A stretch of DNA of 55,211 nt from NCBI GenBank assembly GCA_002731275.1, contig PCBK01000072.1, forward strand, positions 1-55,211, given 5' to 3'. Source of the stretch: Deltaproteobacteria bacterium. Its GTDB lineage: Bacteria > Myxococcota_C > UBA6777. Positions 13,218-23,850 of this stretch are shown in pieces. The stretch's first letter is position 1. The number at the start of each line of letters is the position of its first letter. Below the pieces are notes generated by a model. It saw nothing but the letters and a program-made list of their open reading frames with translations, did not search any database and was not told the origin of the DNA. A program made the position numbers and the translations under genes.

Positions 13218-13847
13218 CTACTTTTTACGTGCTCGCCGTCTTCTACGCCTTCGTCTCCTGCGTCTTCGCCTCCGCCGTCTTCGATATCGCCTTCTCCGAC
13301 GTCTTCGATAACGTCGTCGTCTTCTGCGTATTTTGCGTTTGACGATCGTCTTTTGTTGGATGACGATCTTTTTGCGCGGTACAGGTTTGGGGACGTGCCC
13401 GACGGTCATAAACATGCGAGCGTACTTATCGAGCGGTTTGACCCCCTTTTTGGTCGTAAGCCAGCCCGCCTGGAGCGGACTTTTCCCGATCAAAAACCGA
13501 ACGTTGACCTGACAGTACTCACCTTCGCACTTTGCGCTCCAGCGTTTGAGACGGGCACGTGCTTTGAGCTTGTTTTTTGTAAGCGTTTTGTTCGTACGTA
13601 CGAGCCAACGCTTGATAAACGACACGACGTCCTCGCCGTATGTGTTCTTAGCCTTTTTGACGCGCGCGATAGCTTGGCGCTCTGCAGGGCTGAACTTGGG
13701 CGCCGAGACCGAGGGTTTGGTTTTTCGTGGTGGGGGCTTCTTCTTTCGCTTACAACCGACGGAAAGTAGGAGAAAACAGCCCAACAAAGAGATGAATATG
13801 GAGCGTTGTATGTGTGCCGATCCAAAGAACAAGATCTTGACCTCCAT
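13218..13847 (-). CDS. Lipoprotein with poly-arginine C-terminal tail
   Basis: A 209-residue protein. The signal peptide ends in a lipobox (LLLSVGC), followed by a basic linker (KRKKKPPPRK). A compact domain of about 120 residues has two Cys (CEGEYC) that could form a disulfide. The last 36 residues hold 31 arginines in runs of 6, 7 and 17 broken only by two Tyr and one Ala, before a KK end. All six arginine codons are mixed in the tail, so it is not a simple codon repeat. The ATG at 13847 fits the signal peptide; an upstream ATG at 13991 would bury it. The tail could bind lipopolysaccharide, peptidoglycan or nucleic acid. The folded domain is not recognised. Confidence 0.75.
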   Translation of the reverse strand: MEVKILFFGSAHIQRSIFISLLGCFLLLSVGCKRKKKPPPRKTKPSVSAPKFSPAERQAIARVKKAKNTYGEDVVSFIKRWLVRTNKTLTKNKLKARARLKRWSAKCEGEYCQVNVRFLIGKSPLQAGWLTTKKGVKPLDKYARMFMTVGHVPKPVPRKKIVIQQKTIVKRKIRRRRRRYRRRRRRRYRRRRRRRRRRRRRRRRRARKK

Positions 13848-14051
13848 CGTAAAAGAATCCGCGTTGACAGGAGTTTCAATTATCGCTACACTCCGAAACA
13901 GATCAAGTTGTGTGCTTGAAAAGTCACCTTTTCCAGTCGCTCCTAGCGATCCACAGCGGTAATGTTTGGAGGAGCGGACGAGACACAACAATCGCCGTGA
14001 TGAATCTCAAGTTGGTCCAGAGCAATTCTACGCGTGAAGCGGAGGAGATCC

Positions 14052-14444
14052 ATGTCTGATAAAAAAGAAGATTTTCAATCCTTTCAAATTGGGAACCTCA
14101 CCCCTCCTCGCCCAATGGGAGGTCCCCCGATCGCTTCGACTCCAGCCCCGGCCCCTAGTCAACCAGTGGCTTCAGCGACACCAGAGGCGATGGATATCGC
14201 GCCCGAAGATCGCGTGTTCCCCAACATCGAGATCTTGATCGAAACAGAAGCACTCGAAGAGATCGGGCAAAAGATGGGCGCAACTTGTGACCAGCTTGAC
14301 GAGATCGTCAACACACGCAGCGGACGTGCCAAGGTCGAAGCCCAAAAAGCACGACAAGCCTACGAAAGAACATTCGATCTGATCGATCATTTGATGCAAT
14401 TGAAGCAAACAATGCTCCACGCTCAAAACGAAAATAGCCAATAA
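14052..14444 (+). CDS. Small T3SS-locus protein, helical C-terminal half
   Basis: A 130-residue protein with an ATG at 14052 behind a strong GGAGGA site. Residues 1-60 are rich in Pro and Ala and probably disordered. Residues 60-130 form two charged helices (EALEEIGQKMGATCDQLDEIV, KVEAQKARQAYERTFDLIDHL). There is no signal peptide. It is the first gene of the run leading into the T3SS genes. A disordered front with a helical end fits a chaperone, regulator or export substrate, but no family is recognised. Confidence 0.6.
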   Translation: MSDKKEDFQSFQIGNLTPPRPMGGPPIASTPAPAPSQPVASATPEAMDIAPEDRVFPNIEILIETEALEEIGQKMGATCDQLDEIVNTRSGRAKVEAQKARQAYERTFDLIDHLMQLKQTMLHAQNENSQ

Positions 14445-14489
14445 GAACAAGCAAATAGATTTCAGACAAAAAAAGTCCCAAAAAAACAG

Positions 14490-14516
14490 GAAACCTTTTT
14501 GTGTGTTTGCCGAAAA
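14490..14516 (+). promoter_or_regulatory. Sigma-28 (FliA)-type promoter
   Basis: GAAACCTT (14490-14497), an 11-base spacer and GCCGAAAA (14509-14516) match the FliA consensus TAAAGTTT-N11-GCCGATAA at -AAA--TT and GCCGA-AA. It lies 84 bases before the gene at 14600. A FliA-type sigma factor is encoded 2 kb downstream. Confidence 0.6.
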
Positions 14517-14599
14517 CTGAATTGGGTTGGACGAGAACCCTTTGAATCAAAAAACAAACAAATGAGCAAACATCATTACACGCCCTATGGGAGGAAACG

Positions 14600-15142
14600 A
14601 TGAAAGTTAATAACACTACCCCCGGACTTCGCATGAACATGCAGTCCACCACAACTATCCGTCAAACCAAAAACACCAGCTTCGGTTCCAAATTGGCACA
14701 AGGCCTCCAAGCAACTGCAAACGTTGTTGGTGGAGCAGCTTCCATGGCGATCCCCAACCTTCCAGGCGGAAACGTCATCAGCGCAGCACTCTCTGGTGCA
14801 AAAGGAAGCATTGGTTCCAGCAGCTCCGCGTTGACAGCAGGAAACGCAAACGCAGCACCCGTTGGTGCAGCAGGTAGCGGCGCAGGTAGCCTGACAACAG
14901 GTGGTGTGGGTACAGCACAAGGCGCACTCCCCGGCGTCGGTGGCGCAAACACAGGCGGCAGCTCCGTCGATGGTGCATTCGCACAGAGCAAAAAAATGTT
15001 TGAAATGCAAGCTGGATTCAACCTCCAGTTCCTCGACTTGCAAACCAAAATGCAAAACGAGTCTCGTCAATTCCAAACAATGTCCAACGTGATCAAAAAC
15101 CGTTCGGATACTGCGAAAAACTCCATCCGTAACATCAACTAG
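14600..15142 (+). CDS. Candidate T3SS filament/needle-like or exported protein
   Basis: A 180-residue protein with GGAGG-type site upstream. Residues about 30-125 are very rich in Gly, Ala, Ser and Thr with few charges. The last 55 residues form an amphipathic helix (FNLQFLDLQTKMQNESRQF then TMSNVIKNRSDTAKNSIRNI). A helical C-terminus with aromatic, SN-V-I-K and D-x-A-x-x-x-I spacing recalls the C-terminal helices of SctF needle and SctI rod subunits, which are needed for packing in the filament. No Sec signal peptide is seen, in keeping with T3 export. It has its own FliA-type promoter. A needle subunit or a translocator is possible; neither is proven. Confidence 0.5.
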   Translation: MKVNNTTPGLRMNMQSTTTIRQTKNTSFGSKLAQGLQATANVVGGAASMAIPNLPGGNVISAALSGAKGSIGSSSSALTAGNANAAPVGAAGSGAGSLTTGGVGTAQGALPGVGGANTGGSSVDGAFAQSKKMFEMQAGFNLQFLDLQTKMQNESRQFQTMSNVIKNRSDTAKNSIRNIN

Positions 15143-15299
15143 TCCTTCCTAGTCGTTTTCCTCGCATGTATCTCCCCTTGCCTGACTCCCCATTCTTTGA
15201 TACAACTCTATTACACAATTGTCTGGATGGTGCCGATGTTTCATCGGTGTCCATTTATTTCCTTCCTATGGCCTCCAAGTAAAGCAAGAGTGGTGTAAG

Positions 15300-15716
15300 A
15301 TGAGCGCAGACGAAAGTTTGATTGGATTGGTAGAAGTCTCCAAACAAGAGGCTCAGATCCTTCTAGAAGCTGGTTACCTGTACATGGAGATGGGAGACTT
15401 TCAAGCGGCCCAAGAGATCTTCGAAGGTTGTGTATCGCTACTTCCACGTAGTGATGCTCCCTCTGTTGGATTGGGTAACTTGCTGGTCACACAAGGAAAA
15501 CACCAAGAAGCCATCAAGGCTTACCAAAACGCCGTCAAGATCAGCCCCGAGTCAGCAACAGCGCATGCCTTTTTGGGCGAAGTGCTGATGCTTCAAGGGC
15601 AAACACAGCAGGGACAACAATCCCTACAAAAAGCGATCGAGCTGTCTCCTGAAGGTGCTCCCCCAGCAGAGCTGGCACAGTCCCTCCTGAAGGCCGCACA
15701 AGAAGGCGTTTTTTGA
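15300..15716 (+). CDS. TPR protein, possible T3SS chaperone
   Basis: A 138-residue protein made of about three to four tetratricopeptide repeats (EAGYLYMEMGDFQAAQEIFEG, GNLLVTQGKHQEAIKAYQNAV, GEVLMLQGQTQQGQQSLQKAI). T3SS class II chaperones (SycD/LcrH) and needle chaperones (SctG) are small TPR proteins of this length, and the gene follows the candidate filament gene. The call is by position and fold. A hairpin CCGATG/CATCGG (15233-15247) lies about 50 bases upstream of the ATG and may act in the leader. Confidence 0.6.
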   Translation: MSADESLIGLVEVSKQEAQILLEAGYLYMEMGDFQAAQEIFEGCVSLLPRSDAPSVGLGNLLVTQGKHQEAIKAYQNAVKISPESATAHAFLGEVLMLQGQTQQGQQSLQKAIELSPEGAPPAELAQSLLKAAQEGVF

Positions 15717-15825
15717 GGCTTGATGACAACAGCCAGTCATTCCAACTCAACGTCCACACCATAATCCCAAATCAACAGCGCAAGGATGCCGGTTTTGTGG
15801 GCGTTTCAATGAATTGAGAAGAACG

Positions 15826-16281
15826 ATGAAGATACCCGGTGGAGGCTCACCATTTCACAACATCCGCCAACCCCAAAGCACGTCCAAAGCGAACAGCAGC
15901 AAGGGTGTGTCCAAGGGGAAAGGCAAAGGTAAAGCCGGCCAAGCAAGCCAAATCGCGGGCTCGTCTGCGACGAGTCTGCTCGATCAGGTCGAACAAGTCG
16001 ACTCTCCGATTTACGACGTGATGGCACAAGAGTCGCAACGTTTCGAAAACGGTGAGGCCGATCTCGAAGAAGCAACACGAGCTGTTGTCTCGGCGATGCT
16101 CAAGCAACATCTGGGCAAAACAAACCTCCCAGAAAAAGCACTTGATGAGATCGCAAACACCGTCTCTTCATCGATCACTGGTGACAAAACACTCAGCGAA
16201 CGACTAGAGCTTGCGCTCCGTCGCGTCGCGAAAAATGAAAAAAAGCGCACAGAGCAAAGTGACACGACATCAGCTCCATAA
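15826..16281 (+). CDS. Hypothetical protein of the T3SS locus
   Basis: A 151-residue protein. Residues 1-45 are rich in Gly, Ser and Lys and look disordered. Residues about 50-140 are helical and charged (LDQVEQVDSPIYDVMAQ, LEEATRAVVSAMLKQHL, SERLELALRRVAKNEKK). There is no signal peptide or membrane segment. The ATG at 15826 has GAGAAG close upstream. Position between the TPR gene and the sigma factor suggests a role in export or its control. No family is recognised. Confidence 0.55.
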   Translation: MKIPGGGSPFHNIRQPQSTSKANSSKGVSKGKGKGKAGQASQIAGSSATSLLDQVEQVDSPIYDVMAQESQRFENGEADLEEATRAVVSAMLKQHLGKTNLPEKALDEIANTVSSSITGDKTLSERLELALRRVAKNEKKRTEQSDTTSAP

Positions 16282-16446
16282 ACTCTCCCAATCGTCGCTT
16301 TTTACAAAAGAAACACAGCGCGTCATCCCTTTGCATTGTGCTTTATTTCGTGTTATTCATAGTAGAGCATACTTTTGAAATAAAAGGACGCCCACTTATC
16401 CAAAACAATGGAGTCGCCAACGTACTCCTCGTACTCATCGTGGTAA

Positions 16447-17241
16447 ATGCGAATGCCAAATATCCGCAAAACAAGCAAAACATCACGTCCCCGCTCCAAC
16501 CAAGAGACCTCTTCAGAGCAAGGGACCAACAAAAACAAAGCAGATGTTGCGCAGATGACTCGCGATGAGTTGATCCATCAATTTCGCCCCTACGTGCGCA
16601 ATATCGCACACAAGATAAGCAAAACACTCTCCAAAGACGTCGACTTCGAAGATCTGATAGGTTACGGCGAGCTCGGCCTTATCGAAGCCGCTGATCGCTT
16701 CGACCCAACCTTCAAGGTCAACTTCATGACCTTTGCTTACTACCGCATCCGGGGCGCGATTTACGACGGCTTGCGCGGCATGGGCTGGGTCTCACGCTCT
16801 CAATACGCAAAACTCCGCTATGAAGAGCGCGCAAACAACTACATCACGAGCGTCAACGAGCGAAACGCCTCCAGCCATAGCAGCTCACTCGGAGATGAAG
16901 TCGACCAGATCGGCGACGTGATCACAACTCTCGCCACGATCTACATCACATCTCTCGACGCATCCGAACACATCCAAGTCCAAACAGACAGCCCCGAGAG
17001 CGATCCCTATCACCAGGTCGAGCTGAAACAAGCCAAAGTCCTGATCCGAGAAGCCCTCACCCACCTCTCCGAGCAAGAACGCGAGCTCCTCCAGTACTAC
17101 TACTACAAAGACTACACCCTCGAACAAGCCGGCAGCGAACTCGGACTCTCCAAATCTTGGGCCTCCCGACTTCACGCACGGGCGATCCAAAAATTGCAAA
17201 AGTACGTCAAAGAACTCGCCCCCGAAGGCATCAAAACATAA
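16447..17241 (+). CDS. FliA/WhiG-type sigma factor (sigma-28 family)
   Basis: A 264-residue sigma factor. Region 2 runs about 40-125 (VRNIAHKIS, VDFEDLIGYGELGLIEAADRFD, VNFMTFAYYRIRGAIYDGLRGMGWVSRS). Region 3 is diverged, and region 4 runs about 205-255 (LSEQERELLQYYYYKDYTLEQAGSELGLSKSWASRLHARAIQKL). Region 2.4 with RIRGAIYDGLR and W-V-S-R-S is typical of FliA/WhiG, which read GCCGATAA-type -10 boxes. Two such boxes lie on either side of this gene. Residues 1-36 are a basic, probably disordered extension; the start is uncertain, and an ATG at 16555 would remove it. No FlgM-like anti-sigma factor is recognisable nearby. Confidence 0.85.
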   Translation: MRMPNIRKTSKTSRPRSNQETSSEQGTNKNKADVAQMTRDELIHQFRPYVRNIAHKISKTLSKDVDFEDLIGYGELGLIEAADRFDPTFKVNFMTFAYYRIRGAIYDGLRGMGWVSRSQYAKLRYEERANNYITSVNERNASSHSSSLGDEVDQIGDVITTLATIYITSLDASEHIQVQTDSPESDPYHQVELKQAKVLIREALTHLSEQERELLQYYYYKDYTLEQAGSELGLSKSWASRLHARAIQKLQKYVKELAPEGIKT

Positions 17242-17305
17242 ACGCGTTGTTTCGCAATAAAAACAAACAACTACAAAAAAAGATAGACCGCTCACAGAAA
17301 ATCAG

Positions 17306-17332
17306 CAACTTTACTTTTGGTCCTGCCGAAAC
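17306..17332 (+). promoter_or_regulatory. Sigma-28 (FliA)-type promoter before sctI
   Basis: CAACTTTA (17306-17313), an 11-base spacer and GCCGAAAC (17325-17332). The -10 matches the FliA box well and the spacer is exact; the -35 matches four of eight bases. It lies 58 bases before the sctI ATG. Confidence 0.55.
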
Positions 17333-17390
17333 TAGTATCGTGAGTTGTCGATAAATACCATTTTACGAACATAGATCAGGAGCCAATACA

Positions 17391-17930
17391 ATGAGTGATC
17401 CAATTTCCGGTGGTGGCGGAGCTGCTCTCAAAATCGCGATGCAGCAATTGCAACAAATGCAACAAACAAAGCCCCCTGTCGCTCAGCCAGGGCAACAAGG
17501 TGGTGGAGTCTCTTCTTTCCAGAAGACCATGCAAAACCACCAAACAAACCAGGCGCAAAAAGTCAATCAGGTCAACGATGTGCAAAAAGCAAATCAGGCC
17601 GGAAAGACCCGCTCCATTCGCAACATCGCGCAAAGCCAAAAGGTCCAGGCGACACAAAAAACTGACGCCACGCGCATGAACAAGCTCAACAACACCAAGT
17701 CCAACGCGCCCAAAGGCCTCTCTCGTATGATGGAAGGTCTCAGCAACCGCAAAAAGGACATGGACAAGCTGATCAAGCAAGTCCTCGCTGGCAAAAAAGG
17801 CTTCAACCAAAAAGAGCTCCTCGTTCTCCAATACAAAGTCTCCACCTTCTCCATGGAGATGGACCTCACCAGTAAAGTCGTCGAAAAGTCGACTGGTGGT
17901 GTCAAACAAGCGATGAACACCCAAGTCTAA
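17391..17930 (+). CDS. sctI: T3SS inner rod protein SctI
   Basis: A 179-residue protein. The C-terminal 60 residues (KKGFNQKELLVLQYKVSTFSM, then LTSKVVEKSTGGVKQ) carry the inner-rod signature: an E-L-L-x-L-Q helix, a bend, and a final helix with VSK-V-x-K-x-T-x-x-x-K-Q. This segment forms the rod between the export gate and the needle in SctI/PrgJ/YscI. Residues 1-110 are Gln/Asn/Lys-rich and disordered, longer than in classical rods of about 100 residues. A good AGGAG site precedes the ATG. The gene lies directly before sctJ, as in many injectisome operons. Confidence 0.8.
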   Translation: MSDPISGGGGAALKIAMQQLQQMQQTKPPVAQPGQQGGGVSSFQKTMQNHQTNQAQKVNQVNDVQKANQAGKTRSIRNIAQSQKVQATQKTDATRMNKLNNTKSNAPKGLSRMMEGLSNRKKDMDKLIKQVLAGKKGFNQKELLVLQYKVSTFSMEMDLTSKVVEKSTGGVKQAMNTQV

Positions 17931-18140
17931 TCTCCCCCGCCTCTCCCTTTCCCAACTCACATCCCCTCTCCTCGTAAAATGGATGAGCCTTCACGCTCGC
18001 ACAAGACAACTTCACGCCAAAGTCAACGACAGGCTCTTGCTTAAGCCTCCGGGCTATGCTATAGATCTCAACATCATTCTGGAGCTTGAACCCTATCTCC
18101 TTGTATGCCCCAAAACCCAGCGCGGATGGGAGTAATCGCC

Positions 18141-18986
18141 TTGAACCGACGTTACAATATTCTGTTAGCAGGTCTCCTTTCTTCTTTTCTCTTGCTCGCA
18201 GGTTGCTCAACAGAGATCCAACACAACCTGACAGAGAATCAAGCCAATAAGATCGTTGTATTGTTTGCGAAAGCCGGCATACAGGCAACCAAACAAAAAG
18301 ATGCCTCAGGCCGAGAGGTCAAATGGACCATCGTCGTCGGCAGCTCGGACAAAGTCAAAGCCATCAAGCTGCTGCAACAACATAACATCCCCTCCAAAAA
18401 GGCTGCCGGTTTGAGCGAAACTTACAGCCAGACGGGAATGATCCCCACAGCCACACAAGAGCGTGCGCGCTTCTTGATGGCACAAGCCGGTGAGCTGACC
18501 AAAACATTCAAAGCCATTGGTGGTGTCCTCGACGCACGTGTCCACCTCGTCATCCCCGAAGACAAGATCCTCCGAACGCCCGGAGAAAAACCACCCGAAG
18601 CGCGCGCCTCCGTCTTCCTGAGTGTCAAAACAGGGCAATTCAAAAGCGCCGTCAACAAACGTCGCTGGTTTGCGGAACTTTCGCGAGATGCAAAGTCCCT
18701 CGTCAACGGTAGTATCGAGAAACTCAAAGCACAAAACATCAGCGTCGTCATTCGACCACACGTCGTCCCCGGCGAGAGTGCGACAGAGACCATCGGAAAT
18801 GACCTCCAGACCTCCTCTGTCCTCTCCATCCGTGTCGACACCAAACACGCGATGCGACTCAAACTGATCCTTGGCGGAATGGTCCTCTTGCTCGTGCTCT
18901 TCATCTCCCTCTTTGTGTGGTTCTTTACACGCGCAACCTCCCTCAAAAACCAACTGCGCGCGCTCAACACAAACGCATTCAATTAA
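18141..18986 (+). CDS. sctJ: T3SS inner membrane ring lipoprotein SctJ
   Basis: A 281-residue homologue of YscJ/PrgK and of the N-terminal part of FliF. The lipoprotein signal ends in the lipobox LLAGC. The two ring-building motifs follow: ENQANKIVVLFAKAGIQATKQ at about 30-50 and the second at about 110-190 with GELTKTFKAIGGVLDARVHLVIPE and PEARASVFLSVK. A C-terminal membrane helix is at about 244-267 (LILGGMVLLLVLFISLFVWFF). The TTG at 18141 is preferred since GGGAG lies eight bases upstream and the signal peptide starts there; an ATG at 18105 has no ribosome site. It forms the inner-membrane ring of the secretion base. Confidence 0.9.
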   Translation: MNRRYNILLAGLLSSFLLLAGCSTEIQHNLTENQANKIVVLFAKAGIQATKQKDASGREVKWTIVVGSSDKVKAIKLLQQHNIPSKKAAGLSETYSQTGMIPTATQERARFLMAQAGELTKTFKAIGGVLDARVHLVIPEDKILRTPGEKPPEARASVFLSVKTGQFKSAVNKRRWFAELSRDAKSLVNGSIEKLKAQNISVVIRPHVVPGESATETIGNDLQTSSVLSIRVDTKHAMRLKLILGGMVLLLVLFISLFVWFFTRATSLKNQLRALNTNAFN

Positions 18987-19014
18987 CCCCTCCTGACCTC
19001 AAAGAGAGCCTTCC

Positions 19015-20076
19015 ATGCAACAACTCCAACAGCTCTCCAACGAACACTCCATCCTCGTGCTCACCCTTCTCATCCTCGAAGGCGAACAAGATCTCGACAT
19101 CTTGAGAATGTTCCCCGACGAGACAGCCGAACCTCTCTTACAAGCAGGTCAGGCGCTCAGTGAGATCGGCCCACGCAAACAAGTCCTCCCACAGCTGATC
19201 ACAGAGCTGAAAAAGCGCCTGAAGCTCGCGAACAAAAGCACCACAGAGCACTTCTCCGCTGACTGGCTCGCCGAATTTTTACAACACGAGAGCCCCATCG
19301 CGATCAGCTGCGTCTTGCGCAATTTCCCTCGCCCGATCGCCAACCAGATCGCCAAAAACTTCCCCCCAACAGTCACACAATCGCTGCCCACCCAACCTGG
19401 CACCGTCGAACCAGAGATCCTCCGTGTGGTACAAGAAGCCTTCGAGGGCAAGGTCCCAGAGCTTCCCGAGTATGAACCAGAAGAGCTCAACCTCAGCGCG
19501 CTCAAAGCAGCCAAAGCAGAAGAGATCTATATGCTGATCCGAGAGATTGGCTTCGTCGAATTGGCCGTAGCGTTCCGCGGTGCAGGAAAAGGACCGTTGA
19601 CAGAGCTCTGTCGTCGACTCGGTGCAGAAGAAGCCGAAAATCTCCTCAGCACGATCAAACGACTGCCCCCCTCTCCTTCAGACGAAGTGAAGGCCGCCCA
19701 AAGAAGTATCCGAGCCATCTCATTCACACATAGCTCACGCAGCGAGATCGTCGAAGAGGCAGGACTCAACCTTCTACACGCGGCGTTGCTTTCACTACCA
19801 GAGCGTGAGCGACAACTCATCGCATACCGCCTCCCAAAGCGCATCGGACAACGCCTCTTGTTGCCTGAATCGACCCCTATCGACGATCTTCAACGACTCA
19901 AGCTGCAACACCGCATCGCCAACACCCTACAATACCTCTCCGAAAAAGAACGCATCGCCCCATTCTGGAAACATATCGAGATCACCCTCCCCCCACTCCC
20001 CGAACCAGAGCCTGAAGAGGAAGAGTTTGGAGAGCTTACACCTGACGACGAAGAAACAGGAGACGCCCTCGACTGA
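19015..20076 (+). CDS. FliG-like protein in the sctK position
   Basis: A 353-residue soluble protein, close to the usual 330-345 of FliG. Three FliG-like parts are visible. Residues about 8-75 resemble the N-domain (SILVLTLLILEGEQDLDILRMF). Residues about 88-125 resemble the middle ARM motif (FLQHESPIAISCVLRNFP; FliG has EHPQTIAxxLxxLP). Residues about 170-240 resemble the C-terminal ARM unit (IREIGFVELAVAFRGAG, ending DEVKAAQRSI; FliG has LREVD-DLALALKGA and DVEEAQ). The tail is acidic. Classical injectisomes have SctK here, between sctJ and sctL, at the site FliG occupies in flagella but without clear sequence likeness. The charged torque helix of FliG is not evident. It probably links the SctJ ring to the cytosolic platform. 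Confidence 0.65.
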   Translation: MQQLQQLSNEHSILVLTLLILEGEQDLDILRMFPDETAEPLLQAGQALSEIGPRKQVLPQLITELKKRLKLANKSTTEHFSADWLAEFLQHESPIAISCVLRNFPRPIANQIAKNFPPTVTQSLPTQPGTVEPEILRVVQEAFEGKVPELPEYEPEELNLSALKAAKAEEIYMLIREIGFVELAVAFRGAGKGPLTELCRRLGAEEAENLLSTIKRLPPSPSDEVKAAQRSIRAISFTHSSRSEIVEEAGLNLLHAALLSLPERERQLIAYRLPKRIGQRLLLPESTPIDDLQRLKLQHRIANTLQYLSEKERIAPFWKHIEITLPPLPEPEPEEEEFGELTPDDEETGDALD

Positions 20077-20217
20077 ACATCTCCCTCCACGAAAGTCCAC
20101 TCTCCACACCATCATTTGCTTGTCCCTCTCAAAAGCTCATGAGGCGTTTGCCCCCTGTCTCCACGCGGCAATCCTATTCACTGTATGTGCGCAACGACAT
20201 CTCCTCTACGCTGAGGG

Positions 20218-20246
20218 ATGACAGTGACACGCAAACACGCTATAGT
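20218..20246 (+). promoter_or_regulatory. Sigma-70-type promoter for sctL-sctP
   Basis: ATGACA (20218-20223) and TATAGT (20241-20246) are spaced by 17 bases, in the 242-base gap before sctL. A 6-base hairpin CAGGGA/TCCCTG (20271-20287) lies in the leader that would result. This would let sctL-sctP be expressed apart from the FliA-type promoters. Confidence 0.5.
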
Positions 20247-20318
20247 AGATAAGATCAGAGCTGAACCAACCAGGGATATCTTCCCTGTATCGATAACCCT
20301 CAGTATATGGAGCAAACT

Positions 20319-21014
20319 ATGGCGGGCAATGTGATTAAGAAAGGAGGCGGTGGCGTCATCAAAAAAGGTGCCGGTGCAAATTACAGTTCGACAAACGCAC
20401 CTGCGACCAGCCGACGCCCACAGCCACATCAACGCCCCCAACATCGCAACAGCGGTGGGGTTATCCAGCGCGATGAGCTTGAAGCGCGCAACCAATACCA
20501 GGGTATCATCCAGAAGGCATACGCAGAAGCCGAGATGATCAGGGGTCAAGCCGAAGAGTACAGACAAAAAGGTTACCAAGACGGCTACCAAGAAGGGTTC
20601 GAAGAGGGGAAGTCCCAAATCACCGAGACCTTGTTGCGACTCGAACAAAATTACAAACAGCGTCTGGCCCAGACGGAGCCCGACCTCGTTAGACTCTCCG
20701 TGCAAATCGCCGAGAAACTCATCGGCGCGCAACTACAAATGCAACCCGATCTCATCGTCCAAATCGTAGGCAAAGCGCTCACCGCAGTCCGCCACCAGAG
20801 AGAGATCTTCTTGCGCGTCAATCCCGCAGACTACGAAGTCCTCACACAACATAAACCCCAACTTCTCGACTACCTCTCACGTGCCCAAGACATCGACATC
20901 CGCTCGGACAGCAGCATCGCACAAGGTAGCTGCATCGTCGAATCCGAGATCGGCACCATCGAAGCCGTACTGGAAAAACAGCTCGTGGCTTTTGAGAACG
21001 CTCTTTTGGGATAA
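20319..21014 (+). CDS. sctL: T3SS ATPase stator SctL (FliH-like)
   Basis: A 231-residue protein. Residues 1-45 carry short repeats (VIKKGG, VIKKGA, GVIQRDE) in a disordered stretch. The coiled-coil middle at about 50-120 contains a FliH-type small-residue helix (GYQDGYQEGFEEG). The C-terminal domain at about 125-230 (VRLSVQIAEKLIGAQL, ALTAVRHQREIFLRVNPADYE, DSSIAQGSCIVESEIGTIEA) is the ATPase-binding part of SctL/FliH. The ATG at 20319 is chosen because GGAG lies six bases upstream; another ATG sits at 20307. It regulates SctN and links it to the cytosolic platform. sctN follows by 29 bases. Confidence 0.88.
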   Translation: MAGNVIKKGGGGVIKKGAGANYSSTNAPATSRRPQPHQRPQHRNSGGVIQRDELEARNQYQGIIQKAYAEAEMIRGQAEEYRQKGYQDGYQEGFEEGKSQITETLLRLEQNYKQRLAQTEPDLVRLSVQIAEKLIGAQLQMQPDLIVQIVGKALTAVRHQREIFLRVNPADYEVLTQHKPQLLDYLSRAQDIDIRSDSSIAQGSCIVESEIGTIEAVLEKQLVAFENALLG

Positions 21015-21043
21015 GACCGGATGAAAGAAAGGGTCCACCGCAG

Positions 21044-22402
21044 ATGAGTCTTTTTTCGACAAACCAAGGTAACGGTTTCTCATCCTCTCTCCTCGATCTA
21101 TCGAAGTATATCGACAAACTCGATCAAGTCTCCACCATCAAAAGCCGTGGTCGCGTCACCGAAGTCGTCGGTCTCGTGATCAAAGCTGTTGTCGGAGGCG
21201 TACGCGTCGGCGAAATGGTCATCATCAAGAACCACAATGCTCCCGACATCCGCGCCGAAGTGGTTGGCTTTCGCGATGAACAGGTCATGCTCATGCCGAT
21301 CGGTGAAGCCATGGGGATCGGACCTGACTCTGAGGTCATCCCGACGGGAAAACCATTTACCATCAAGTGCGGTGATGAGTTACTTGGGCGCGTCCTCAAC
21401 GGCGTCGGCGAACCGATGGTTGGAGGTCCCCTCCCGCGCGGCATGGATGACTGGGCTGTCGAACGCCCACCACCCGATCCAATGGAACGTAAACGTGTCC
21501 TCCATCACCTGCCCTTTGGTGTCCGCGCGATCGATGGACTCCTCACAGTCGGCGAAGGACAACGGGTTGGACTCTTCGCTGGTTCTGGGGTTGGTAAATC
21601 GACCCTCATGGGACAGATCGCACGTAACGCTTCTTCGGACGTCAACGTCATCTGCCTGATCGGAGAGCGGGGGCGTGAAGTCCTCGACTTCATCGAAGAA
21701 TCTCTCGGAGAAGAAGGGATGGCGCGCTCGGTCCTCGTCGTCGCGACCTCGGACACCCCCTCTCTCGTCCGCTTGAAATCCGCCTTTGTATCAACAGCCA
21801 TCGCCGAGTACTTTCGCGAAAAAGGCGCCAAGGTCCTGTTTATGATGGACTCCACGACGCGATTTGCACGTGCACAACGTGAGATCGGCCTCGCTGTCGG
21901 AGAGCCCCCAGCGCGGCAAGGGTATCCCCCCTCCGTCTTCGCCATGCTCCCACGCTTGCTCGAACGCACTGGAAACTCCGCAAACGGCTCGATCACGGCC
22001 TTGTACACCATCCTCGTCGCAGGTGGTGACATGGAAGAACCGATCGCCGATGAGGTGCGTGGTATTCTCGACGGACACATCATCCTCAACCGAGAGCTTG
22101 GCGCAAAAAACCACTGGCCTGCGATCGACATTCTCCCCTCACTCAGTCGGGTCATGAATGGACTCGAAACACTGAATGACCGACATAAACCAGCCGCTAA
22201 GAAGTTACGGCAGGTGCTCGCAGCTTACAAAAAGAACGAAGACCTTATCCTCCTCGGCGCTTACACACATGGCTCCGACCCCGAGACTGATTACGCCATC
22301 GACAAGATCGAAGAGTGCAACAGCTTCCTCAAGCAAGGTCTCTACGAAAAACCTGACTTCAACGAATCCATCGATCACCTCGCGAGTATCTTTGGATTGT
22401 AA
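21044..22402 (+). CDS. sctN: T3SS ATPase SctN (FliI/YscN family)
   Basis: A 452-residue hexameric ATPase of the usual length. Walker A is GSGVGKST at 180-187 and Walker B ends at Asp268 (VLFMMDSTTRFA). The family signature REIGLAVGEPPARQGYPPSVFAMLPRLLER follows. The beta-barrel start (residues 30-105) and helical end are complete. It uncouples chaperones and unfolds export substrates at the base of the secretion channel. The same motifs occur in flagellar FliI; the neighbouring SctI and SctJ argue for a non-flagellar system. It lies between its stator gene sctL and its stalk gene sctO. Confidence 0.95.
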   Translation: MSLFSTNQGNGFSSSLLDLSKYIDKLDQVSTIKSRGRVTEVVGLVIKAVVGGVRVGEMVIIKNHNAPDIRAEVVGFRDEQVMLMPIGEAMGIGPDSEVIPTGKPFTIKCGDELLGRVLNGVGEPMVGGPLPRGMDDWAVERPPPDPMERKRVLHHLPFGVRAIDGLLTVGEGQRVGLFAGSGVGKSTLMGQIARNASSDVNVICLIGERGREVLDFIEESLGEEGMARSVLVVATSDTPSLVRLKSAFVSTAIAEYFREKGAKVLFMMDSTTRFARAQREIGLAVGEPPARQGYPPSVFAMLPRLLERTGNSANGSITALYTILVAGGDMEEPIADEVRGILDGHIILNRELGAKNHWPAIDILPSLSRVMNGLETLNDRHKPAAKKLRQVLAAYKKNEDLILLGAYTHGSDPETDYAIDKIEECNSFLKQGLYEKPDFNESIDHLASIFGL

Positions 22403-22473
22403 TTACATCACAAAATCGACGCCCCATCGTCACGGTGTGCATCTTTTTTGTCTCGACATCAAGAGGATTGGAT

Positions 22474-22965
22474 ATGGCAAAACCTAAATATCGGCTTCAA
22501 ACGCTCCTCGAAATCCGAGAACGCACAGAAAAAGAAAAGAAGGATCAGCTCGCTGAAGCGAAAAAAATTCACCGACAAGAGCAACAAAAAGCGGAAGATC
22601 TCCGAAAAGAACATCAGGAGATGAAAGATCGTCGTGTTGCACAAGCGGAGGAGAACGCCCGCAAAGTGCAGTCCGGTGAGATGGGCATCGAAAAGTTCCT
22701 TGCAGCCGAACGTTACGTCAAAAGACTTGATCAAGAGATTGAAGATTTCAAGAGCGTGATCAAGGAACAAGACAAAAAAGTGATCTTCGCCGAGCAAGAA
22801 GTTGAATGGGCCACTGAGGAGCTGATCAAAGCAACACAGGAATATAAAGCCCTTGAAAAACATAAAGAAAAATGGGAAACTCAGTATAAAAAAGAAATGC
22901 AGGCCAAAGAAGAACTCAAACAGGAAGAGATCTCCATGGCCATGTTCCTTTTCCGCGACAAATAA
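22474..22965 (+). CDS. sctO: T3SS central stalk protein SctO (FliJ-like)
   Basis: A 163-residue, almost fully coiled-coil protein rich in Lys, Glu and Gln (YRLQTLLEIRERTEKEKKDQ, continuing to the end). Length, coiled coil and position directly after the ATPase gene define SctO/FliJ, the stalk that turns in the ATPase centre and contacts the export gate. Sequence identity between family members is always low, so the call leans on position. The ATG at 22474 has GAGG eight bases upstream. Confidence 0.82.
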   Translation: MAKPKYRLQTLLEIRERTEKEKKDQLAEAKKIHRQEQQKAEDLRKEHQEMKDRRVAQAEENARKVQSGEMGIEKFLAAERYVKRLDQEIEDFKSVIKEQDKKVIFAEQEVEWATEELIKATQEYKALEKHKEKWETQYKKEMQAKEELKQEEISMAMFLFRDK

Positions 22966-23001
22966 ACGTGTAGACGTGCAACGCCAACAAGGAGAATCGA
23001 C

Positions 23002-23850
23002 ATGAGTCGTGTTTCCAACCAACAATCACAACAGCCTGCTGTACAAAACCAAAAACCCCCCAAGGATCTCTCCAAAAACCAAAATGTTCAGCGCAAGGCC
23101 GGCGAAAACGCTTTCGCCAATCGCCTCAAGGGCAAAAATGAACAACCCAAACCCAAGCAACAAACGCTGAAGCAACCCACCGCCAAAGCCGGCACAGATG
23201 CTTCCACAGCGCTGCTCCAAAAACATGGTCAAATGGCGATGTCGAGACGCGGTGGCAAAACCACCGTCGCCGACCTACAAGCCAAACTCGAAGCTTTCCA
23301 AGGTGGCGAAGGAAAAGGCGCAAAACTCGACGGCGCAGCGATGGGCAAAGGCGACAAGATGCTCCTCGGCGACGGCGATAACACCCTCCAGGGTGATCTG
23401 CTCGGCCAACAAGGACAGAGCGGTGACATGAGCCAGATCGCTGGCCAACAAATGCTCGGACAAAACGGAATCGAAGCCGCACAAGGCACCTACCAGGTCC
23501 AAGGTGCCAAGATCCCCACTGCGATGCTCGACAAAATGGTTGAACACGCACGTGTCGGTGTCAACGCCACAGGCGCTCCCGAGTTCCAATTTGACCTCAA
23601 AGGCGATGTTCTCGGTGGGCTCAAAATGCGTATGTCTATGGATAATGGACAACTTAAAGCGATCTTTGTCGCTGAAAACCCCGAAGTCCGACGCCTCATC
23701 GATGGCAACATGCAAGATCTCAAGAAAGCCCTAGAAGATCGTGGAATCCATATCCGCGACCTCGAAGTACGCGACCCCAAAGAAGATCAACGCCAACGTC
23801 AGCGCGACCAACATAACAAAGATCGCGAACAAGCCTTCAGCCAAGACTAA
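23002..23850 (+). CDS. sctP: T3SS length-control protein SctP (FliK-like)
   Basis: A 282-residue protein. The first 180 residues are low-complexity, rich in Gln, Gly and Lys, as expected for a ruler. Residues about 185-250 match the FliK/SctP C-terminal switch domain (FQFDLKGDVLGGLKMRMSM, DNGQLKAIFVAENPEVRRL, LKKALEDRGIHI). The end is highly charged. It measures needle or hook length and switches substrate specificity at SctU. AAGGAG lies before the ATG. It is the last gene of the run; a convergent lipoprotein gene follows. Confidence 0.85.
   Translation: MSRVSNQQSQQPAVQNQKPPKDLSKNQNVQRKAGENAFANRLKGKNEQPKPKQQTLKQPTAKAGTDASTALLQKHGQMAMSRRGGKTTVADLQAKLEAFQGGEGKGAKLDGAAMGKGDKMLLGDGDNTLQGDLLGQQGQSGDMSQIAGQQMLGQNGIEAAQGTYQVQGAKIPTAMLDKMVEHARVGVNATGAPEFQFDLKGDVLGGLKMRMSMDNGQLKAIFVAENPEVRRLIDGNMQDLKKALEDRGIHIRDLEVRDPKEDQRQRQRDQHNKDREQAFSQD

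Follow-up and report, generated by a model that had tools for sequence, protein, structure and literature searches.

The window analyzed here is a stretch of 55,211 nucleotides that forms one complete contig of the draft genome of a Deltaproteobacteria bacterium, which the genome set used here assigns to a small, separate phylum. A tight cluster of type III secretion system (T3SS) genes spans about 14034 to 23850 of the window on the forward strand, in the order two small proteins, a TPR protein, a further small protein, a sigma factor, sctI, sctJ, a FliG homologue, sctL, sctN, sctO, and sctP. Gene-order comparison identified a gene for a 136-aa protein of no assigned family (14034–14444) as the first of the conserved cluster. 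It is followed by genes for a 180-aa protein of no assigned family that is conserved in the needleless T3SS known from Myxococcus xanthus (T3SS*; 14600–15142), a chaperone-like TPR protein (15219–15716; Pfam and gene-order comparison) that is also conserved in T3SS* loci, an ~150-aa protein without an assigned family that is conserved in close relatives (15814–16281), and a sigma factor of the FliA/WhiG family (16447–17241; TIGR02479, 6e-43). The inner rod gene sctI (17391–17930; TIGR02497 3e-4, PF17001 6e-5, and conserved order) and sctJ (18105–18986; TIGR02544, 9e-42), which encodes an inner-ring lipoprotein with a second transmembrane segment and a short cytoplasmic tail of 19 aa, come next. 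On the far side of the FliG homologue lie sctL, encoding a FliH-type stator (20307–21014; YscL, 7e-30), the ATPase gene sctN (21044–22402; family match), the YscO-like sctO (22459–22965; PF16789, 3.4e-21), and sctP, whose product has a FliK C-terminal (Flg_hook) domain (23002–23850; PF02120, 2.4e-14). The genes for SctQ, FliO, and SctR are on a second contig (C13), and that for SctV on a third (C134). Searches for SctC returned generic secretin matches only (best 117–121 bits against a cut-off of 238) and those for SctD returned FHA-only matches (best 31 against a cut-off of 86), none of either being in the window.

Three observations concern the neighboring genes. The FliA/WhiG-type sigma gene inside the cluster is also conserved in other T3SS* loci, which gives the impression of a retained flagellar regulator of the class-3 type. 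The 180-aa protein has homologues in the T3SS* loci L008, L043, L044, L128, L129, and L132 and gave no match in Pfam or NCBIfam; in hhalign, its C-terminal helix is weakly similar to a canonical SctF needle subunit (probability 57%, E = 1e-4), suggesting that a system described as needleless may own a needle- or rod-like substrate. Lastly, a small ORF on the reverse strand (13218–13991) encodes a product whose C-terminal end is a very long stretch rich in arginine (RRRRYRRRR...), and a similar tail is found at L008:15605–16441.

Between sctJ and sctL, in the position of sctK, an ORF at 19015–20076 runs from ATG to TGA and encodes 353 aa, with exactly the boundaries given in the earlier note, which had described the product as a FliG-like protein taking the place of SctK. 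On its own, the protein matched Pfam FliG_C (PF01706) at 5.2e-6, above the gathering score, and FliG_M (PF14841) at 1.2e-4, just under the cut-off. Among 25 members of the corresponding T3SS* family, FliG_C and FliG_M were each detected in 23 (best FliG_M match 2e-8) and FliG_N in nine; neither YscK nor HrpB4 was among the families listed for these members. When the 25-member profile was searched against PDB sequences, all matches below E = 0.01 were FliG, the best at 2.8e-17, and an hhalign comparison with 12 flagellar FliGs gave E ~1e-23 and a probability of 99.6% over a span covering the N, M, and C regions. Moreover, a profile built from the five nearest proteins recovered ordinary FliGs of 330–370 aa from ~55 genomes belonging to other phyla, most of them at E = 1e-6 to 1e-9. 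With the NCBIfam fliG equivalog model the protein scored 19.5 bits, far below the cut-off of 226.7 bits. Judged by its sequence, the window protein is a true homologue of FliG and a remote member of that family. We also noted that NCBIfam NF004606 (PRK05934, 'type III secretion system protein') weakly matches five of the 25 T3SS* FliGs (best 0.0062), and that in L043:9286–10236 (reverse strand) the match sits at the C-terminal end of the model; another T3SS family may contain a FliG_M-like piece.

The FliG order proposed in the earlier note held for the M and C parts, and the similarity of the N part was the weakest. Residues 1–75 (19015–19239) form a shortened FliG_N-like region that was detected when the family N segment was aligned to the FliG N region (hhalign E = 1.6e-4); Pfam FliG_N (PF14842) was absent when the 353-aa protein was searched alone. 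The FliG_M (ARM_M) domain occupies residues 83–147 (19261–19455), and the family segment matched FliG there at 3e-14. It contains the predicted EHPQ-like motif, QHESPIAISCVL (residues 90–101, 19282–19317), in which the glutamate, E92, is invariant (25 of 25 members) and the proline is present in 21 of 25. The FliG_C unit spans residues 161–235 (19495–19719); the F-x-F ahead of it is mostly retained across the family, and the DEVKAAQ near its end, singled out earlier as the close of a C-terminal ARM unit, corresponds to residues 223–229, where the AQ ending agrees with FliG.

Beyond this unit the architecture is more elaborate than first described. In a joint alignment, a segment of residues 239–290 (19729–19884) is inserted ahead of the last FliG_C helix; it resembles the C unit itself (internal repeat E = 5e-6) and is possibly a second C-like unit. 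Joint sequence and structural alignment matched residues 291–316 (19885–19962) with the last helix of FliG; the tail at residues 325–353, rich in acidic residues and proline, has no counterpart in FliG. The likeness of armadillo units to one another leaves doubt over how precisely this C-terminal rearrangement is to be read. Overall, the window protein shares with flagellar FliG (PF14842/PF14841/PF01706; TIGR00207) an N-M-C order that is tentative for its N part, an EHPQ-type motif, F-x-F, and the C-terminal helix, and T3SS* FliG further shares the place after the MS-ring gene and a FliM-type partner with GGxG. By contrast, the window protein has lost the torque charges, its N part is short, ~40 residues of the M–C linker/ARM_C are missing, the insertion and the acidic tail are additional, and the host genome shows no flagellum or MotB.

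Structure prediction pointed in the same direction, at low confidence. AlphaFold2 (AF2) gave a pLDDT of 41 from the single sequence, and a pLDDT of 57.7 with a pTM of 0.37 from a five-row alignment. The 15 best structural neighbors of this low-confidence model were all FliG (14 at Z = 9.8–12.0 and one at 5.3), with the next non-FliG structure at 4.9. The 89-residue C domain of Thermotoga maritima FliG (1qc7) superimposed at 2.2 Å over 89 residues on model residues 157–314. In Foldseek, ranks 1–9 were likewise all FliG, at E values no better than 0.016 and hence none below 0.001, and generic armadillo proteins appeared at lower ranks as well; among the matches listed there was no SctK structure, which does not in itself speak for a difference.

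Next, we considered whether the protein retains the charged residues of the torque helix. Escherichia coli K264, R281, D288, D289, and R297 correspond to R188, E205, S212, T213, and P221 in the window protein, so that all five are replaced, in agreement with the remark in the earlier note that the charged helix is not evident. Across the 25 members the torque columns are mostly uncharged or reversed, the R281 column being E/D in 14 of 25 and the R297 column being D in 15 of 25. No MotB_plug match was found in the host draft genome, while control genomes were positive; no second FliG over the cut-off was found in the draft genome, and no motor genes were seen in T3SS* loci. Given the loss of the torque charges and the absence of MotB and of a second FliG, the protein should be a static or slowly exchanging adaptor in the sorting platform.

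The prospective partners of the protein were also informative. In SctQ of the host genome, the SpoA domain is preceded by a FliM domain (PF02154, 4.4e-11), and the GGxG-type motif reads LGGQGD. The SctQs of L043, L044, and L104 also combine a FliM domain with SpoA, and the corresponding motif in other loci reads LGGNGD, LGGAGE, LGGAGD, or LGGENK; by contrast, SpoA was the only kind of domain in the two canonical SctQs compared. A FliO homologue is encoded between SctQ and SctR on host contig C13 (L102:9804–10661, reverse strand; 1.4e-9), consistent with FliO in Myxococcota T3SS as published in 2025 (PMC12403147). On the membrane side, T3SS* SctJ tails are 15–53 aa long, often with a basic helix, compared to 67–92 aa for flagellar FliF tails. 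The FliF-type FliG-binding motif 'LI/VRTWL', present in flagellar FliF, was sought in the T3SS* SctJ tails and was not found. With short tails that lack the 'RTWL' motif, the membrane-side contact must differ from the flagellar one.

In other genomes, too, the genes are arranged as sctI-sctJ-X-sctL. All five genomes of the host phylum in the set carry the FliG-like gene in the same order, at 40–43% identity and with no internal stops. A second, Myxococcus-like phylum (genome G032) also has matches (127 of 193 genomes at the search threshold, a number that includes some ordinary flagellar FliGs), and two further lineages (G095 and G135) have strong homologues of T3SS* FliG. In family f29, which contains the M. 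xanthus-like locus, matches cover mostly residues 5–190 (the N and M parts), followed by long variable tails. Complete T3SS* loci read sigma-sctI-sctJ-FliG-sctL-sctN-sctO-sctP-sctQ-FliO-sctR. The flagellar operon has the order fliF-G-H-I-J-K-(L)-M-(N)-O-P, and the block sctJ-FliG-sctL-N-O-P-Q-FliO-R is colinear with it. In the ATPase tree, T3SS*, the host SctN included, formed one clade (97/97) and injectisomes another (100/99), and both together were split from flagella (99/98). In the FliG tree, which is unrooted and has long branches, T3SS* FliGs formed one clade against the flagellar FliGs (100/100) and were not nested among those that flagellated genomes of the Myxococcus-like phylum encode. 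An origin of the protein from a resident flagellum was rejected on the grounds of this separation and of the lack of a second FliG over the cut-off in the host draft genome.

The host system fits the 'Myxo' or needleless T3SS* of M. xanthus (MXAN_2434–2464). Shared components are SctI, J, L, N, O, P, Q, R, and V, and the two also have in common FliO, an in-cluster sigma factor, and the lack of a recognizable SctC or SctD (PMC12075869, PMC10433427). M. xanthus requires this system to lyse prey (PMC12075869, PMC10433427), and a role in contact-dependent predation is known for M. xanthus only (PMC12075869). Among non-flagellar T3SS, the Myxo group has been described as the basal branch (PMC3459982). 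The earlier note had suggested an early-branching or hybrid export apparatus: 'early-branching' fits, because the ATPase tree puts the system outside flagella and beside injectisomes and Myxo systems are basal in the published phylogeny (PMC3459982), whereas a hybrid peculiar to the host genome does not, since the system is a known one and FliG is common to its whole family. Published descriptions of T3SS* nonetheless call FliG absent or omit it (PMC3459982, section 9). Abby and Rocha (2012) reported Myxo systems to be without FliE and FliG and argued that these would have been detectable if there (PMC3459982); the FliG was likely overlooked because of its divergence, as its equivalog score indicates. 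FliG was not reported for these T3SS in the open-access papers covered here, and a 2022 Cell Reports paper on T3SS* may name the gene.

The slot between sctJ and sctL is shared with the SctK family (YscK, PF06578), whose presumed job is to join SctQ to the inner-membrane ring (PMC4045390), and an annotated SctK of a Nitratidesulfovibrio plasmid is encoded in the same slot. On this view the window protein might be an ordinary divergent SctK (YscK/HrpB4/OrgA family) whose likeness to FliG reflects convergent helical repeats; both proteins are mostly helical, and generic armadillo proteins are found among the lower Foldseek hits. However, the profile matches are specific to FliG and are accompanied by the invariant EHPQ glutamate, F-x-F, and the AQ ending. 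Moreover, the Nitratidesulfovibrio SctK matched Pfam YscK (1.5e-4) and had no FliG match, and the 25-member profile showed no similarity to it (probability 0.1%), in a comparison with one annotated sequence only; we therefore consider a divergent SctK highly improbable. A search with the YscK family over the 193 genomes gave no match, controls included, and is hence silent on absence. The profile–profile search against FliG and SctK that the earlier note called for came out on the side of FliG. A different relationship, in which injectisome SctK is itself a much-diverged FliG, with the T3SS* family as an intermediate and with one lineage, slot, and job throughout, is a possibility, though less likely than not. 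The operon position is the same for fliG in flagella, FliG in T3SS*, and sctK in injectisomes, the ATPase tree shows T3SS* and injectisomes as sister clades, and reviews, arguing from function, enter SctK as 'FliG (?)' (PMC4045390). Nevertheless, the T3SS* FliG profile is without similarity to the one SctK compared, and SctK could be an unrelated replacement.

How the system came by its FliG can be approached from gene order and phylogeny. Exchange of parts between T3SS is known to be modular, and secretins have been recruited several times (PMC3459982), hence an already non-flagellar system might have taken up FliG later from a flagellar operon. We regard such late recruitment as improbable, since the whole block from sctJ to sctR is colinear with the flagellar operon, and T3SS* FliGs are one clade that does not lie within the flagellar FliGs, those of the Myxococcus-like phylum included. 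The colinear operon and the separate clade favor retention from a flagellar ancestor instead. Given that FliG, FliM, and FliO parts have all been kept, it could also be asked whether T3SS* still rotates, or passes on torque via a different motor. With torque-helix charges lost or reversed, MotB not found in a search whose controls were positive, and T3SS* loci devoid of motor genes, this appears the least credible of the alternatives.

FliG couples the MS ring to FliM. Our preferred reading is that, in T3SS*, a non-rotating adaptor derived from FliG very probably links the SctJ ring to the C-ring of FliM-like SctQ, the job that SctK has in injectisomes. The M and C domains of T3SS* FliG would dock on SctQ, whose FliM domain retains the GGxG loop that binds FliG, and the N part, probably together with the short basic SctJ tail, would anchor the platform beneath the inner-membrane ring. 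Torque generation would have been abandoned, with the MotA-facing charges lost and no MotB stator in the genome. We infer the contacts, the ring stoichiometry, and the non-rotation of T3SS* FliG; as a FliM-type SctQ with GGxG and an EHPQ-type FliG face have both been retained, a FliG–FliM-type contact would be the simplest reading. A bolder reading, less likely than not, is that FliG and FliM-like SctQ of T3SS* build an unbroken C-ring of the flagellar type in place of the six separate pods of injectisomes, and that injectisome SctK derives from this FliG. If true, T3SS* would be a living intermediate between a flagellar rotor and a sorting platform.

In the standard account, the loss of FliG precedes the first branch on the way from flagella to injectisomes, and its absence from Myxo systems was used as evidence (PMC3459982). 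The presence of FliG and of a FliM-type SctQ in Myxo systems shifts this loss to after the Myxo split. The equivalence of SctK and FliG thereby becomes a testable question in M. xanthus, a genetically tractable predator, and FliG fills a gap in models of the T3SS*/Kil killing machine.
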